The translations under genes were made by a program, and so were the position numbers. The notes beneath the pieces are model-generated. The model did not search any database and was not told where the DNA came from. It saw only the letters and a list, made by a program, of their open reading frames with translations. A stretch of 64,000 nt of DNA from Neisseriaceae bacterium (GTDB lineage Bacteria > Pseudomonadota > Gammaproteobacteria > Burkholderiales > Neisseriaceae), in assembly GCA_017934045.1 (NCBI GenBank), contig JAGBKK010000022.1:1-64000 (forward strand). The letters are read 5' to 3'. Below are positions 46,338-52,605 of the stretch, piece by piece. The first letter of the stretch is position 1, and every line of letters begins with the position of its first letter.

Positions 46338-46661
46338 TTAAAACAACAAAAACTGTTCAGCATTCACCTTTTTTTCTTGTCGTGTGCTGCTACCGATTAA
46401 CAGTTTCATACCAGCATATTGTTTTTCGGTAACTTCCAAGCAACGCACATTGCCGTCTTTGGGCAGCATTTGAATTAAACGCCGCTCGTGTTTGGCAACC
46501 GCGTCCCGTCCCCGAACAATTCTGGAATAAACCGATAATTGCAACATAGAATAACCGTCTTTAATTAACGATTTACGGAAACGATTTGCAATCTTTCTTT
46601 CTTCCGCAGTTTTAACAGGCAAGTCAAAAAAAACAATAATACGCATAAAACGATTACTCAT
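46338..46661 (-). CDS. cas2: CRISPR-associated endoribonuclease-like Cas2
   Basis: 107 aa. '[20 protein letters not shown]' with the conserved Asp, then '[13 protein letters not shown]', and the C-terminal '[12 protein letters not shown]'. Joins Cas1 to form the spacer-integration complex. Start ATG 46661, overlapping the cas1 stop by eight bases; the longer upstream frame lies within cas1. No CRISPR array follows: only 80 bp remain before ubiE. Confidence 0.93.
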
Positions 46662-47565
46662 ATTGACACTCATTAGCGTATGATATTTCAGGCAGCCTGA
46701 AAAAATCTGCATTTTGATGATGAAAAACCGCTGTAAGCGATTTAACCATTTGTTCCATTGCCGATAAAACACTGTATATTTTTTGATTAAACAGCATTTC
46801 ATAATTGAGTAATTTAACTAATTGATATTTATCAGGCGGTATCAATTCATCGTTCAGGCTGCCTGAAACTAATTGCGTATAAATTTCTAAATCCACAATT
46901 TGACGAAAAACTTCCATTAAATCATCTGCTAAATTAAATTGATTTAATTCACTTTTATGCCACAATCCTAATGCAGGCAAAAAGCCGTATGCCACCAAAA
47001 CTCTTGCCACAGCCGAACGCATAATCGAATAACCATAATTTAATCTTATATTTACAGGCGTATCAATACCACGCGAAAAACCATTACCAAATAATGCAGG
47101 AAAATATAAAGCAGCAGCTTTTGCTTCGCATTTATCTAAATCATTCGCTTTAACACTGTTGGATAAAGCTAATAATTTTTGCGATATTATATCTTGACCT
47201 GCCCATTTTAATACCAAAGATTGATGATAAATTTTTTGGCGAATAATTTGTTGCCACAGAATTGATTTGATTTCCTCTGATAAAGAAATTTGCAAAGACA
47301 ACATTTTCAAAAAACGGCTGTGTTGCGAAAACGACAAAAACTGCCCGCACGGCAAAAAATGCTCATCGCACACAATCAGCGTTACGTCGTGTTGGGCAAT
47401 GGCGGTTAAAAGCGGGGCAGTCATCACCACTTCACGGCTATCCACCACAATCACCGCAATATCTTCCAAAGGCACAGTAATTTTGTTGTCTTGACTAATA
47501 AGTAACTGATTGTTTTGCAAAGATAATTTTGCAGGTTGAGAAATAAACACACTTCGCCACGACAT
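46654..47565 (-). CDS. cas1: CRISPR-associated integrase Cas1 (type II)
   Basis: 303 aa, type II Cas1 that integrates new spacers with Cas2. '[20 protein letters not shown]', '[19 protein letters not shown]', the metal-binding Glu in '[14 protein letters not shown]', and '[21 protein letters not shown]' with His and Asp/Glu ligands. GGAG lies seven bases before the ATG. It runs away from cas9, whereas the normal type II-C order is cas9-cas1-cas2 on one strand. An uptake sequence is translated at 46857 ('VSGSLND') and near 46690 ('FFRLPEI'). Confidence 0.95.
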
Positions 47566-47723: not shown

Positions 47724-48136
47724 ATTGATTTTTTAAATAAAAAACACAAAAACAATAGTCGCAAAATAATGCAAAAATGCTATTTTTGCTTGATTTTTTG
47801 GCATTGCGTTTTTTATTGATAAATCAAATATTTGTTATTTTTTTATTGACTTCCAAGTGGTATATAGTTGCCCCCCATTTTGGGGTGGGCTATAATTAAA
47901 AATGGCAACGAACGCAATCTATTACGGTTATAGCCACCCCCCAAAATTAGGTAGCCTATATACCACTACTTAAATTTTGAGGGGTCTTGTGTGCTGTAAT
48001 AAGAGCCGTTTATGGCATTCTTTTTAGAAATTTGGTTTTTAGGGATTTCTTTGAAGAGTGAAGCTCGCGTGGTAAATCATATCCACTAACCATAAACAAA
48101 CAATCAAAACCGACAAGTTAAACGCTTGTCGGTTTT
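47724..48136 (+). repeat. Left arm of an inverted repeat flanking cas9
   Basis: Imperfect inverted copy of 52214-52605. Shared landmarks, in order from outside to inside: 'aaaaaacacaaaaacaatag' region, a GCAAAAA hairpin, 'ttttattgataaa', the repeat-like element, a 30-bp interval, its inverted partner, GCTGTAATAAGAGC, GCTCGCGTGGTA, ATCCACTAA, CAAACAATCAAAACCGAC and the terminator stem. Differences are spread throughout, so the duplication is not recent. Confidence 0.8.
47860..47963 (+). CRISPR. Single CRISPR-repeat-like unit, 30-bp interval and inverted anti-repeat (left)
   Basis: The 37-bp element 47860-47896 starts GTATATAGTTGCCCCCCA and ends TTTTGGGGTGGGCTATAAT. It matches the layout of Neisseria type II-C repeats, including the 3' end 'GCTAYAAT', which in Neisseria is the -10 box inside each repeat. 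After exactly 30 bp comes 47927-47963, its partial reverse complement: eight end bases pair, a middle segment mismatches (bulge), the rest pairs again. That is the repeat/anti-repeat geometry of a tracrRNA. It is not an array. Confidence 0.6.
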
Positions 48137-48140
48137 GCCT
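47903..48140 (+). ncRNA. Candidate tracrRNA, left copy
   Basis: Transcription should start about seven bases after TATAAT at 47891-47896 and run through the anti-repeat (47927-47963), a tail with GCTGTAATAAGAGC and GCTCGCGTGGTA, to the hairpin ACCGACAAG/CTTGTCGGT at 48106-48136 followed by T. The tail has an extra segment not in the right copy (about 48015-48055), so it may be the less active one. Confidence 0.55.
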
Positions 48141-48379
48141 TTATACAATATTTCAGGCAACCTGAAATATTGGTTTTCATCATTTTCATCGCACCTTGCG
48201 GTGCGTTGGTGGGTTAGAAACCCACCCTACGGCGGTAGTCATTCGGTGCATTTGTTATGGCAAGGCTCGCAATAACAGTAGTTTATGTAGGGTGAAATTT
48301 TAGCCCACTGTAACGAACGAAATAATTTCAGGTAGCCAAAAAAAATATAACTCATTGAAAAAAATTATTTTTTTTATAT
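48137..48379. other. Spacer between left tracrRNA and cas9 promoter
   Basis: No gene. Holds a degenerate uptake sequence (48151-48165) and the segment 'cgcaccttgcggtgcgttgg' with 'gtgggtttctaac' type sequence, which recurs inverted at about 52745-52785 outside the right arm. Confidence 0.55.
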
Positions 48380-48408
48380 TTGAATAATGATTTTAAATTT
48401 GTTATGCT
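48380..48408 (+). promoter_or_regulatory. Likely cas9 promoter
   Basis: TTGAAT at 48380-48385 and TATGCT at 48403-48408, spacing 17, about 25 bp before AAGGA and the cas9 ATG. Confidence 0.5.
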
Positions 48409-48441
48409 GTTTTTTTCACACGGATATAAAGGATAAGCAAA

Positions 48442-51400
48442 ATGGCACAGCAACAACACAATTATATTATCGGTTTGGATTTAGGCATTGCGTCTGTGGG
48501 TTGGGCGTGTGTGGCAGTGGATATTTTTACCGATAAAGACGGTAAGGAGCAAGCACAGCCGATAGGGTTGATTGATTGTGGGGTGCGGTGTTTTGCCGCC
48601 GCCGAAAATCCGAAAAATGGCGAGAGTTTGAATTTTGCACGCCGCCAAGCACGCAGTCAAAGACGCACCATTGCCCGCCGTGCCAACCGTATGCGGCAAG
48701 TGCGAAAATTGTTGTTTAAATACGGACTATTAACGGCAAACGAGTTTCAGGCTGCCTATTGTCAAAATCCAAAACATAAAAAAGACAAAGATACAACGCT
48801 TATTAAAGAACGCAATGAAAAATTATTGAAAAAGATAGGTATTCCTGAACAACAACTGCTTTCAGGCAGCCTGAAAAATGATGAAAAAGCCTTTTTCTCT
48901 AATGTTTGGCAGTTGCGAGTTGAAGCCCTACACCGCAAATTAGAGAGAGCAGAATTTGCGGCGGTGATTTGTCATTTGGTGAAACACAGAGGTTATCGTT
49001 CAACAAGAAAATCAGAACGAAAAAATGCGGACGCAGAAACAGGCAAAATGCTAAAAGGCGTTACGGAAAATCATAATTTATTAGAAAATAAAGAATACCA
49101 AAGCCCTGCGGAAATTGCGGTTCATTATTTCTTTAAAGAACACGGTCAAATGCGAAATAAGCAAACACTTGCTTACAAACGCATAAGCAAAGGCGAAAAC
49201 AAGGGGCAGTTTGAATTAGACGCACAGGGGCAGAAAATTCCCATTATTAAAGACGGCGTTCATCAAAAAGAAGGCTCTTATCTGCACACCTTTAACCGTT
49301 TGGATTTAGAAAACGAATTACAACTGATTTTTGAACGCCAAAAATCTTTTGGCAATGAGTATGCGGATAAGGCTTTATGCCAAAAAATCAAGCATATATT
49401 GCATTATCAAAAACCTGCCCTGCAAGGCGATGCTTTGAAAAAAATGTGGGGCAAATGTTCGATTTATGAAAATGAATTGCGAGCTCCCAAAGCGTCTTAT
49501 TCAGGCGAACGCTTTGTGTGGATTTCTAAACTGAATAATTTGAAAATCAACAATAAACCACTCACGGAAGAACAACGCTTGTTGCTCAAAGAATTGCCGT
49601 TTGAACAAAGCAAACTCGCCTTTACGCAAGTGCGTAAAAAATTAGGGCTTGCAGACAATGCAACATTTAATTTATGCCGTTATGTTTATGATAAAGACAA
49701 AACCGCTGAACAAAATTTAGCGGATAGCGAAAAAGCAACGCTGTTTGAAGCCAAGTTTTTTCACGAAGTCAAAAAAGCCTATAAAAATTTGCCGAATGAA
49801 TGGGGCAACCTGAAAGATAATCACGAAAAATTAGACCAAATCGGCGAAGTTTTGGCATTTTACAAGGAAGATAAGGATAGAAAACAGCATTTAAGCGATT
49901 TTTCTAATGATGAAATTGAGGCGATTTTAGAGTTAAATTTTGATAAATCGTTGAATTTATCGCTTAAAGCCATTCGTGAAATTTTGCCCTTAATGGAAAA
50001 CGGTTTGCGTTATGACGAAGCCTGTACGCAGGTTTTTGGCAACCATTACGGCAGAAGTAAAAACAAACAAGCCTTTGACAAACTGCCGCCGATTGATAAA
50101 AAAGACCCTGACACGCCCAATAATCCAGTGGTGTATCGCACCATAACACAGGCACGCAAAATTATTAACGCCCTTATTGCCCAACACGGCAAACCTTTCA
50201 GGGTGCATATTGAAATGGGGCGAGATTTAGGCAAAAGCCGTGATGAACGCAATAAAATTGAAAAACGCCAAAAAGAAAATCAAGCCGAAAGAGAAAGAGA
50301 ACGAGAGCGTTTTATTGAAAATCACGGTTTTGAACCCAAAGGCAAGGATATTTTGCTGTATCGCTTGTATGATAATCAGCACGGCAAATGTTTGTATTCA
50401 GGAAAACCGATTGATTTAGAACAAATTTTTGAAAAAGGTTATGTGGAAATTGACCACGCCATACCGTTTTCGCGTTCTTGGGACGACAGCCAAAATAATA
50501 AAGTTTTGGTTTTGGGGGCAGAAAATCAAAATAAAGGCAATAAAACGCCGTTTGAATGGCTGGGACACGATGAACAAAAATGGCGTGATTTTGAAGCAAG
50601 AGTGAATGCTTGTCGTTTTTCCTTGCGTAAAAAACAAAATATTTTGCGGCAAGAATATGATGAAGAGAAAGAAAAAGAATTTATTTCTCGCAATATCAAC
50701 GATACGCGTTATGCCACTCGCTACCTGAAAAACTATCTTGAAAATAATTTAGCGTTTTCAGGCAGCCTGAAATATCGTGATGAAAATGGCGAAGAACATT
50801 GTTATCAAAAAGTATTTGCACCGCAAGGGCAGATTACTTCCATACTTCGTCGCTCTTGGGGATTTAGCAAAGTGCGAGAAGATAACGACCGTCATCACGC
50901 ATTAGACGCAATTATAGTCGCTTGTGCCACTCCTTTTGTGCAAAACAAAATCACAAATTGGTATAAAAATAAAGAAAATAAGAATACAAATTTAATGCTT
51001 GAAGAAGATGAACAAGGTGAAAAACATTATTCACTTAAAAAACCTTTTCCTACGCCGTGGTACTTTTTCCGCAATGAAATTAACTTGCGTGTATTTAATC
51101 AAGTAGAAAAAAGCAAAGATGAGTGGGAAGTGTTAGACATTGAACACCGTGATGAACTTCTTGATTTAATTCGCGACAAACTCCCCGACCGTCCTGCTGA
51201 ATTAGCACAACACGAATTTGTGCAACCTTTGTTTGTTTCACGTAAAGTGCGTAAAAAAATTTCAGGGCAAGGGCATTTGGAAACTTTGTATTCCGAAAAA
51301 TCCACGCACAAAAATAAACCGCAAAGCGGCATTCACCTGCGTGGCGGCATTGTGGCAAATGCCACAATGATACGCATTGATGTTTTCCGCCACAAAAAAA

Positions 51401-51903
51401 CGCACAAAAATTATATTGTGCCGATTTACGCACACCAAGCCACAAACGGCGTTTTGCCTAATCGTGCGATTGTGTCAGGAAAAGATAAAGGCACAGGCAA
51501 GAAAAAAGAATGGTTAGAAATGACGGACGAATATGAATTTATCTATTCATTCTATCCATTTGATTTAATTGAAATTCGTGATAAGAAAAATCCTGAAAAA
51601 CGCATTTTTGGGTATTATCGACAATGCAATATTGCAACAGGCGGTGTGGATATTCAACAGCCCGAAGACGACTGGACAAGAATAAAACATTACCAAAATA
51701 AATTTGGTCGTCAAAGAAAATCATCAGATAATGAATCTGACACAACCGCCAAAGATGAAAAACAAACCACTTTATTTCAGGGCGTGGGCATTCAAAATAT
51801 GGAAGTTACCAAATATGCCGTTGATGTTTTAGGACGCAAAATCACCCCGATTGCCCCAGAAGAACGGCAAGGCTTTGATGAATTGTTTCATGATGACGAA
51901 TAA
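48442..51903 (+). CDS. cas9: CRISPR-associated endonuclease Cas9, type II-C
   Basis: 1153 aa, a little longer than N. meningitidis Cas9 (1082). RuvC-I '[14 protein letters not shown]' with Asp13; Arg-rich bridge helix '[20 protein letters not shown]'; RuvC-II '[14 protein letters not shown]'; HNH '[15 protein letters not shown]' with His672; RuvC-III '[16 protein letters not shown]' with Asp822; the C-terminal PAM-interacting region has 'ADNATM'-type block '[16 protein letters not shown]'. All catalytic residues are present. Two uptake palindromes are translated as 'SGSLK' (48861 and 50757). AAGGAT lies seven bases before the ATG. It stands alone between two tracrRNA-bearing inverted repeats, divergent from cas1-cas2. 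Confidence 0.97.
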
Positions 51904-51957
51904 AGCATTTATGCGTAGGGTGGGCAACTTTGAAGCTCCACGCAGTTTTATTCAATT

Positions 51958-52183
51958 TTCAGGCAGCCTGAAACCTTTACAAAACCTATTTATCTATATA
52001 ATAAATGCAGATATTATAGGGTGGGCAGGCTACCCACCAACAACGCCGTGAGAAGTTGATTACTTATTGATATTTAATAAAATTCCGACCTGTCGGGCGG
52101 CTGGTGGGCTGACACGCCCACCCTATAACGATTGCATTTATCATTATGCTTAAAATAGGTTTTGCAAAGGTTTCAGCCTGAAA
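51958..52183. mobile_element. Miniature inverted-repeat element, family 2
   Basis: Begins TTCAGGCAGCCTGAAACC then TTTACAAAACCTATTT, and ends with AAATAGGTTTTGCAAAGG then TTTCAGCCTGAA, a near-perfect inverted repeat of about 34 bp. The interior has 'gtgggcaggctacccacc' hairpins. The ends start with an uptake sequence. A second copy lies at 55585. Confidence 0.65.
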
Positions 52184-52209
52184 AACTCGCAATGACGAAA
52201 TAAATAAAA

Positions 52210-52426
52210 AGACAAAACCGACAAGTTTTAACTTGTCGGTTTTGATTGTTTGGGGGATTGTTGTGTGGATTAGTGGATACCCCTTTTATGTGAATGCACA
52301 CATATACCACGCGAGCGTCTTTTAACCACACTGCTCTTATTACAGCCTGTTCATACCTTTTAAGGTATATAGCCCACCCTTATTTGGGGGGGCGGCTATA
52401 ACAAATAAAGGTAAAACAATTTGCTT
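52210..52426 (-). ncRNA. Candidate tracrRNA, right copy
   Basis: Minus strand: after TATAAT at 52438-52433 and a 30-bp interval comes the anti-repeat (52402-52365), then the hairpin ATACCTTAAAAGGTAT, then 'AGGCTGTAATAAGAGC', 'AGTGTGG', 'ACGCTCGCGTGGTA', and the terminator ACCGACAAG/CTTGTCGGT at 52243-52214. The order AGGC..GU, AAGA..UGUG, ACGCUC resembles the N. meningitidis tracrRNA tail as I recall it. It runs towards the 3' end of cas9. Confidence 0.6.
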
Positions 52427-52605
52427 GATAGGATTATAGCCCACCCCGAAATGGGGGGCAACTATATACCCCTTGAACGCTCATAAAAAAAACGCAACGA
52501 TTTGTTTTATCAATAAAAAATTTAACGCTAAAAAATAAAGCAAAAACACCGTTTTTGCACTATTTTACGACTATTGTTTTTGTGTTTTTTATTAAAAAAA
52601 TCAAT
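52214..52605 (-). repeat. Right arm of the inverted repeat flanking cas9
   Basis: Inverted, diverged copy of 47724-48136, about 4.1 kb away inner end to inner end. The outer part keeps a hairpin GCAAAAAC/GTTTTTGC where the left has GCAAAAAT/ATTTTTGC. An uptake palindrome follows directly outside. Confidence 0.8.
52365..52469 (-). CRISPR. Single CRISPR-repeat-like unit, 30-bp interval and inverted anti-repeat (right)
   Basis: Read on the minus strand, 52469-52433 starts GTATATAGTTGCCCCCCA and ends TTTCGGGGTGGGCTATAAT, one base different from the left unit. The 30-bp interval (52432-52403) is unrelated to the left interval. Then comes the anti-repeat 52402-52365 (38 bp). The core CATTTCG is shared with the N. 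meningitidis repeat. Confidence 0.6.

Follow-up and report, generated by a model that had tools for sequence, protein, structure and literature searches.

In the type II-C clustered regularly interspaced short palindromic repeats (CRISPR)-Cas system of Neisseria meningitidis, the 36-nt, part-palindromic repeat carries a −10 box 3′-terminally, and the spacers are 30 nt long. Guide and scaffold are united in one RNA in the omega-RNA of IscB, whose guides derive from transposon context and are not adaptive, and in the engineered single-guide RNA (sgRNA), which is artificial and usually presented as an invention. The known natural CRISPR single guide, tracr-L of Streptococcus pyogenes type II-A, joins CRISPR RNA (crRNA)-like and trans-activating crRNA (tracrRNA) parts in one Cas9-guiding molecule; it is a fixed regulator, with a fixed short guide to the cas promoter, beside a normal array (PMC11417352). 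The small CRISPR-associated RNA (scaRNA) and a predicted sgRNA-like RNA are repeat-like small RNAs by cas9 with their own promoter and terminator, each a single fixed regulator without a variable 30-nt spacer or multiple cassettes (PMC6199352, PMC13431127); the sgRNA-like RNA was reported in Listeria (PMC6199352). Here we analyze a 64,000-nt stretch of a Neisseriaceae genome (GCA_017934045.1, contig JAGBKK010000022.1, positions 1 to 64,000; hereafter the window), in which cas9 is enclosed by two inverted units. These are likely one-spacer CRISPR cassettes that encode natural sgRNAs for the enclosed type II-C Cas9, with dispersed cassettes replacing arrays.

Each cassette consists of a leader, a first repeat (R1) with promoter, 30 bp, a second repeat (R2), a linker, an anti-repeat, a nexus hairpin, and a terminator. 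The features of the locus are as follows.

46338..46802, minus strand: cas2 (TIGR01573, E 5e-25); its open reading frame (ORF) overlaps the end of cas1
46654..47565, minus strand: cas1 (TIGR03639, E 7e-91), divergent from the left cassette
47724..47859, plus strand: left leader-like stretch, AT-rich, conserved across the right and four orthologous arms
47860..47896, plus strand: left R1 with promoter TTGCCC-17-TATAAT, one of the two top promoter-like sites (10/12)
47897..47926, plus strand: left spacer TAAAAATGGCAACGAACGCAATCTATTACG, 30 bp, 0.20–0.30 identity to orthologous spacers
47927..47961, plus strand: left R2, a crRNA-type repeat; GTTATAGCC pairs with GCTGTAAT in the fold (P 0.88–1.0)
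47993..48006, plus strand: left true anti-repeat GCTGTAATAAG and start of the nexus stem, from the fold and scaffold alignment
48003..48074, plus strand: left nexus-like stem-loop GAGC...GCTC, then GCGTGGTA; stem conserved in 14 scaffolds
48105..48141, plus strand: left terminator hairpin with a 12-bp stem and T-rich end; the terminator scan reported the minus strand only
48442..51903, plus strand: type II-C cas9, 1153 aa (TIGR01865, E 3e-211)
52207..52244, minus strand: right terminator hairpin with a 14-bp stem and T-run, the best terminator scan match
52305..52347, minus strand: right anti-repeat GGCTGTAATAAG and nexus-like stem-loop, from the fold and scaffold alignment
52367..52402, minus strand: right R2, pairs with the anti-repeat (P 0.88–1.0)
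52403..52432, minus strand: right spacer CCTATCAAGCAAATTGTTTTACCTTTATTT, 30 bp, 0.33–0.37 identity to orthologous spacers
52433..52469, minus strand: right R1 with promoter TTGCCC-17-TATAAT, the other top promoter-like site
52470..52605, minus strand: right leader-like stretch, conserved with the left arm and orthologous arms

A preliminary description had placed two units of about 0.4 kb in opposite orientation, one on either side of cas9, and this arrangement is borne out, with both units pointing to cas9. The arms at 47724–47896 and 52433–52605 are 86% complementary across 173 nt and form the longest inverted repeat in 46.5–54.5 kb, and a loose R1 pattern matched twice in the window and never in 100 shuffles; the inverted pair is not a chance feature. 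The order it gave, of a repeat-like element, a 30-bp interval, a second repeat-like element, shared blocks, and a common terminator stem, is the same in both arms. The second element, R2, had been called a matching anti-repeat. The inverted match exists (0.74–0.82), but R2 is equally a direct copy of a part-palindromic repeat (R1/R2 direct 0.65–0.84). The blocks described as a shared tail are indeed shared, yet one of them, GCTGTAATAAGAGC, loses its status as tail since it pairs as the true anti-repeat. At gathering cut-offs, no Rfam model matched the region except tRNA. The cassette pair is conserved in two sister species, where the right arms are 89–90% identical between species versus 79% between the left and right arms of the window, and the right arms are therefore orthologous.

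Each R1 terminates in TATAAT, preceded at 17 nt by TTGCCC, and these are the two best promoter-like sites of 47.6–52.7 kb. R1 is similar to, and oriented like, the meningococcal repeat (sequence from PMC6199352). The start of R2, GTTATAGCC, pairs in the same molecule with GGCTGTAAT, the start of the block earlier listed as tail. This R2:anti-repeat pairing occurs in 14 of 15 predicted scaffold folds, with 94% of alignment cells paired and C-G to U-A double changes in two scaffolds. Because R1 pairs far worse with the anti-repeat than R2 does (−5.7 versus −12.2 kcal/mol in the left cassette; about −5 versus −12 in most units), R1 looks specialized as promoter and integration-side repeat and R2 as scaffold. 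The linker between R2 and the anti-repeat differs among scaffolds, with three or more divergent hairpin forms. Beyond the anti-repeat comes a nexus-like stem, GAGC...GCTC, with one C-G to U-A change (A10L), and the terminator stem has 99% of its cells paired across scaffolds. The stem GUUAUAGCC:GGCUGUAAU is the counterpart of GUUGUAGC:GCUACAAU, the basal stem of the meningococcal guide scaffold. As modeled, the transcript would hold guide, crRNA repeat, and tracrRNA in a single molecule with the anti-repeat in cis, and the intramolecular repeat:anti-repeat stem that characterizes a natural sgRNA is present in the predicted folds. Two other readings of the anatomy were set aside. One treats R1 and R2 as a single hairpin with the spacer as its loop and the guide in the leader; it was rejected on account of a loop of exactly 30 nt that is hypervariable and matches mobile genes. 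Transcription from the opposite strand was rejected on account of the orientation of R1, which is that of the meningococcal repeat, and of the terminator that ends the tail on this strand.

The window genome (1.9 Mb, 43 contigs) belongs to a Neisseriaceae genus of rumen bacteria, with two sister species from metagenomes of roe deer abomasum and sheep omasum. We found 15 complete units in six of seven genus genomes: the cassette pair flanks cas9 in three species (six arms aligned), and a genus search added nine units, five in G006 and two each in G003 and G005. Two units per genome are not special, as another species carries degraded copies in addition to five dispersed ones. The five units of G006 lie on five contigs among housekeeping genes that, from their ORF translations, appear to be ubiB, prfA, lepB, zapE, and hisA/cmk. 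Across the six arms, leader and R1 are conserved, exactly 30 nt are unalike, and conserved sequence then resumes. The R1-to-R2 interval is exactly 30 nt in all 15 units; the R1 search was independent of spacer length, and this constancy was not imposed by the first cassette pattern. Mean pairwise identity among the 15 intervals is 0.262, versus 0.268 when shuffled. In seven orthologous pairs, spacer identity is 0.07–0.37, while R1 (0.84–1.00) and the start of R2 (0.89–1.00) are conserved; since orthologous spacers fall to shuffled-level identity between conserved borders, the 30-bp interval has been replaced as a unit. Every complete copy keeps the promoter, the exact interval, and the anti-repeat, and 14 reach the terminator, the remaining one ending at a contig edge. 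Among 399 genomes of the order, matches to a scaffold covariance model were confined to this genus (none in 397 others sampled).

Two spacers match genes of mobile elements. For the right spacer of locus L011, the match is to virB11 of two further Neisseriaceae genera (25/30 and 26/30 nt). In the virB11 frame it reads RNICMVGGTG against LNICMVGGTG, in the Walker A region, and the mismatches beyond the first codon are all synonymous. The neighbors of virB11 encode VirB8, VirB9 (CagX), VirB10 (TrbI), and a coupling protein, which together make a conjugative type IV secretion system, and virB11 genes were also among weak plasmid matches. One spacer of G006 agrees at 23/24 nt with the major capsid gene of Vibrio anguillarum phages (E 0.01 in a 2.3-Gb phage collection), in frame with the capsid protein (ETGFTNNA); its reversed control reached a best E of 8. 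Each match taken alone is only suggestive; as a pair they are convincing, given the in-frame agreement and the two independent virB11 matches. When eight spacers were run singly against phage or plasmid collections, six had no usable match, and pooled spacers were without a match among phage or plasmid records. Seven scans of IMG/VR for exact spacer seeds returned nothing, or chance 18-mers without extension, and the cassette pattern did not occur there. Neither window spacer had a target among the mobile-element collections searched or a second strong match in its own genome. Matches to apaH-, ahpC-, and ptsI-like genes in sister genomes were rejected as weak, with a mismatched seed end or a short fit, and a 22/30 match of the G5C105 spacer in G063 was unconvincing. 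The true targets are probably unsequenced rumen relatives. Because the intervals are constant at 30 nt and hypervariable, with two matches to mobile genes, we regard them as real spacers; length and variability are those of CRISPR spacers, and a mobile origin is supported for two via distant homologues.

The locus is type II-C in having a Cas9 of the II-C/Neisseria kind and type II cas1 and cas2. Cas9 retains intact RuvC and HNH motifs, is about 50% identical to Neisseria Cas9s, and has type II-C Cas9s (8hnt, 6jdq) as its nearest PDB structures. Upstream of cas9 on the opposite strand lie cas1 and cas2, the latter probably with a true start downstream of its ORF start. Both genes are intact and under purifying selection, with ratios of nonsynonymous to synonymous substitution (dN/dS) of 0.09–0.29 for cas1 (four species) and 0.06–0.12 for cas2. 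This selection, and the presence of cas1 in five of seven genus genomes, including all three good ones, indicate that the adaptation machinery is maintained. No csn2, cas4, or further plausible cas gene was found among the ORFs of 44–57 kb.

Two other hallmarks of type II-C differ. In place of a multi-spacer array, the genus has single R1-spacer-R2 units, the R1 search finding neither tandem R1 nor an R1-spacer-R1 array, and in place of a separate tracrRNA, every unit carries its anti-repeat in cis, downstream of R2. The locus thus resembles that of N. meningitidis in its Cas9, Cas1, and Cas2 families, whereas here no array was found, spacer, repeat, and tracrRNA appear to share one transcription unit, and the units are dispersed with one spacer each, R1 looking promoter-only and R2 scaffold-only. 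The predicted transcript is like tracr-L in joining both RNA parts, but with a full-length variable spacer. The promoter and terminator of each unit recall scaRNA and the sgRNA-like RNA, and the predicted union of guide and scaffold in one RNA recalls omega-RNA and the engineered sgRNA. We found no one-spacer sgRNA genes in the open full-text literature, where natural single guides are fixed regulators, and no type II-C locus with such a layout, in line with the preliminary description, although one may have been missed. If the proposal is true, it would show that a fusion of guide and tracrRNA, much like that of IscB, is compatible with adaptive immunity. The cassettes would also supply ready-made, length-varied scaffolds for a Cas9 about 50% identical to Neisseria ones, and they raise the question of how Cas1-Cas2 restricts each locus to a single spacer.

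We propose that R1, the leader-proximal repeat, serves as a promoter, and that transcription would start about 7 nt into the spacer. Transcription likewise starts about 7 nt into the spacer from meningococcal repeats. The transcript would comprise about 23–24 nt of spacer followed by R2, a linker forming a loop, the anti-repeat, and finally nexus hairpin and terminator, and Cas9 loaded with this one-piece guide would cut mobile DNA that matches the spacer. Spacers would be swapped as 30-bp units while the remainder of the cassette stays. Ordinary leader-side integration would give R1-new-R1-old-R2, in which the new spacer lacks a scaffold; the old spacer must then be lost, or an exchange between cassettes must take place. 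Cas1-Cas2 might integrate a new spacer while the old one disappears, or transformation might swap spacers between the uptake sequences that border cassettes; the latter is plausible because DNA uptake sequences flank both window cassettes. Whether this amounts to array-less CRISPR-Cas9 immunity, with dispersed one-spacer sgRNA genes as memory and learning by spacer replacement or by importing cassettes through uptake-sequence-driven transformation, we consider evenly balanced.

The preliminary description had read the units as two tracrRNA genes converging on cas9. The convergence and the tracrRNA functions (anti-repeat, nexus, and terminator in both units) stand, but separate genes serving an ordinary array elsewhere are very unlikely. 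In each unit the anti-repeat is preceded by that unit's own spacer and a crRNA-type repeat, which makes it a complete guide gene; the interval behaves as a spacer, and R1 is a poor partner for the anti-repeat. The own genome contains no third copy of R1 or of the repeat end, the R1 search found no tandem R1 in the genus, and no array for such genes to serve was found. As for the suggestion that the two units differ in activity or timing, the largest difference between them is the spacer, so their targets are expected to differ more than their timing. Regulatory natural sgRNAs aimed at host genes would have precedents in tracr-L, a natural single guide that represses Pcas (PMC11417352), and in the scaRNA known in N. 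meningitidis (PMC13431127). We nevertheless regard this as extremely improbable: the guide part differs in every cassette and species rather than being fixed, the window spacers have no second strong match in their own genome, and two other spacers match mobile-element genes. The cassettes could also be decayed remnants of a dying system, arrays shrunk to a last spacer beside the tracrRNA, as degraded copies in G006:C102 (R1 without R2), G006:C40 (scaffold), and G003:C23 (a second scaffold without R1) would suggest. This appears quite unlikely given the completeness of the 15 full copies, spacer replacement that postdates the species split, and the purifying selection on cas1 and cas2.

A closer variant keeps the same cassettes but has an enzyme such as RNase III cleave the primary transcript within the linker, to give an ordinary crRNA:tracrRNA pair from one precursor. 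In type II systems RNase III usually acts on the repeat:anti-repeat duplex, and long double-stranded stems of this kind are predicted here. Opposing it, the linkers have diverged into several folded forms whose hairpins stay closed, and meningococcal type II-C guides reportedly do not require processing, as Zhang is said to have found in 2013. We consider such cleavage a rather unlikely possibility. Potential RNase III cutting of the linker into an ordinary dual guide nonetheless counts against one-piece natural sgRNAs, as do several further points. Only 2 of 15 spacers have a plausible source, neither from the window genome and both via distant relatives of the target, and the E-values of the matches are modest for the number of searches. 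One scaffold (G5C134) folds otherwise than predicted, and covariation is sparse, since the stems hardly vary. All genus genomes are drafts (40–320 contigs), in which an array could sit unassembled. We predict transcription of the cassettes from their anatomy, promoter, and terminator, and infer that the RNA would serve uncleaved and how spacers would be exchanged. In favor of one-spacer sgRNA genes are the anatomy and its conservation, the spacer-like hypervariability, the two mobile matches, the lack of a detected array, the predicted fold, and intact Cas1, Cas2, and Cas9.

Several minor observations concern the cassettes elsewhere in the genus. The leaders upstream of R1 (L056–L064) fall into three lineage-specific families, closest within lineage, as if leader and Cas1-Cas2 had co-evolved or cassettes had been copied within genomes. 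In G006, a degenerate R1 without R2 lies upstream of cas9 (L014, C102, 2787–2823), a degenerate scaffold on C40 has a broken R2 (L127), and on contigs C28, C63, C88, and C89 a cassette lies no more than a few hundred bases from the contig end; this genome may have more cassettes than were assembled. On G003:C23 (L061, 524–2853), cas1, cas2, and a cassette are followed by a HigB/HigA-like toxin–antitoxin pair and then a second scaffold without R1 or spacer, which might act in trans; no cas9 was found in G003, an incomplete genome. In another Neisseriaceae genus, a cas9 fragment (L112, G064:C53, 1–1764) shares 93% identity with residues 139–507 of the window Cas9; it adjoins xseA and has an insertion within its early part. 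Neither cas1 nor cas2 occurs in the 8 kb read around it, a terminator-like hairpin was the only scaffold match in that genus, and the fragment is probably a horizontal transfer. In intergenic regions of G003 and G005 (L062, L063), AGTCTGCCGGAAA-like repeats take the place of the window's AGGCAGCCTGAA and may represent a further uptake-sequence dialect within the genus.

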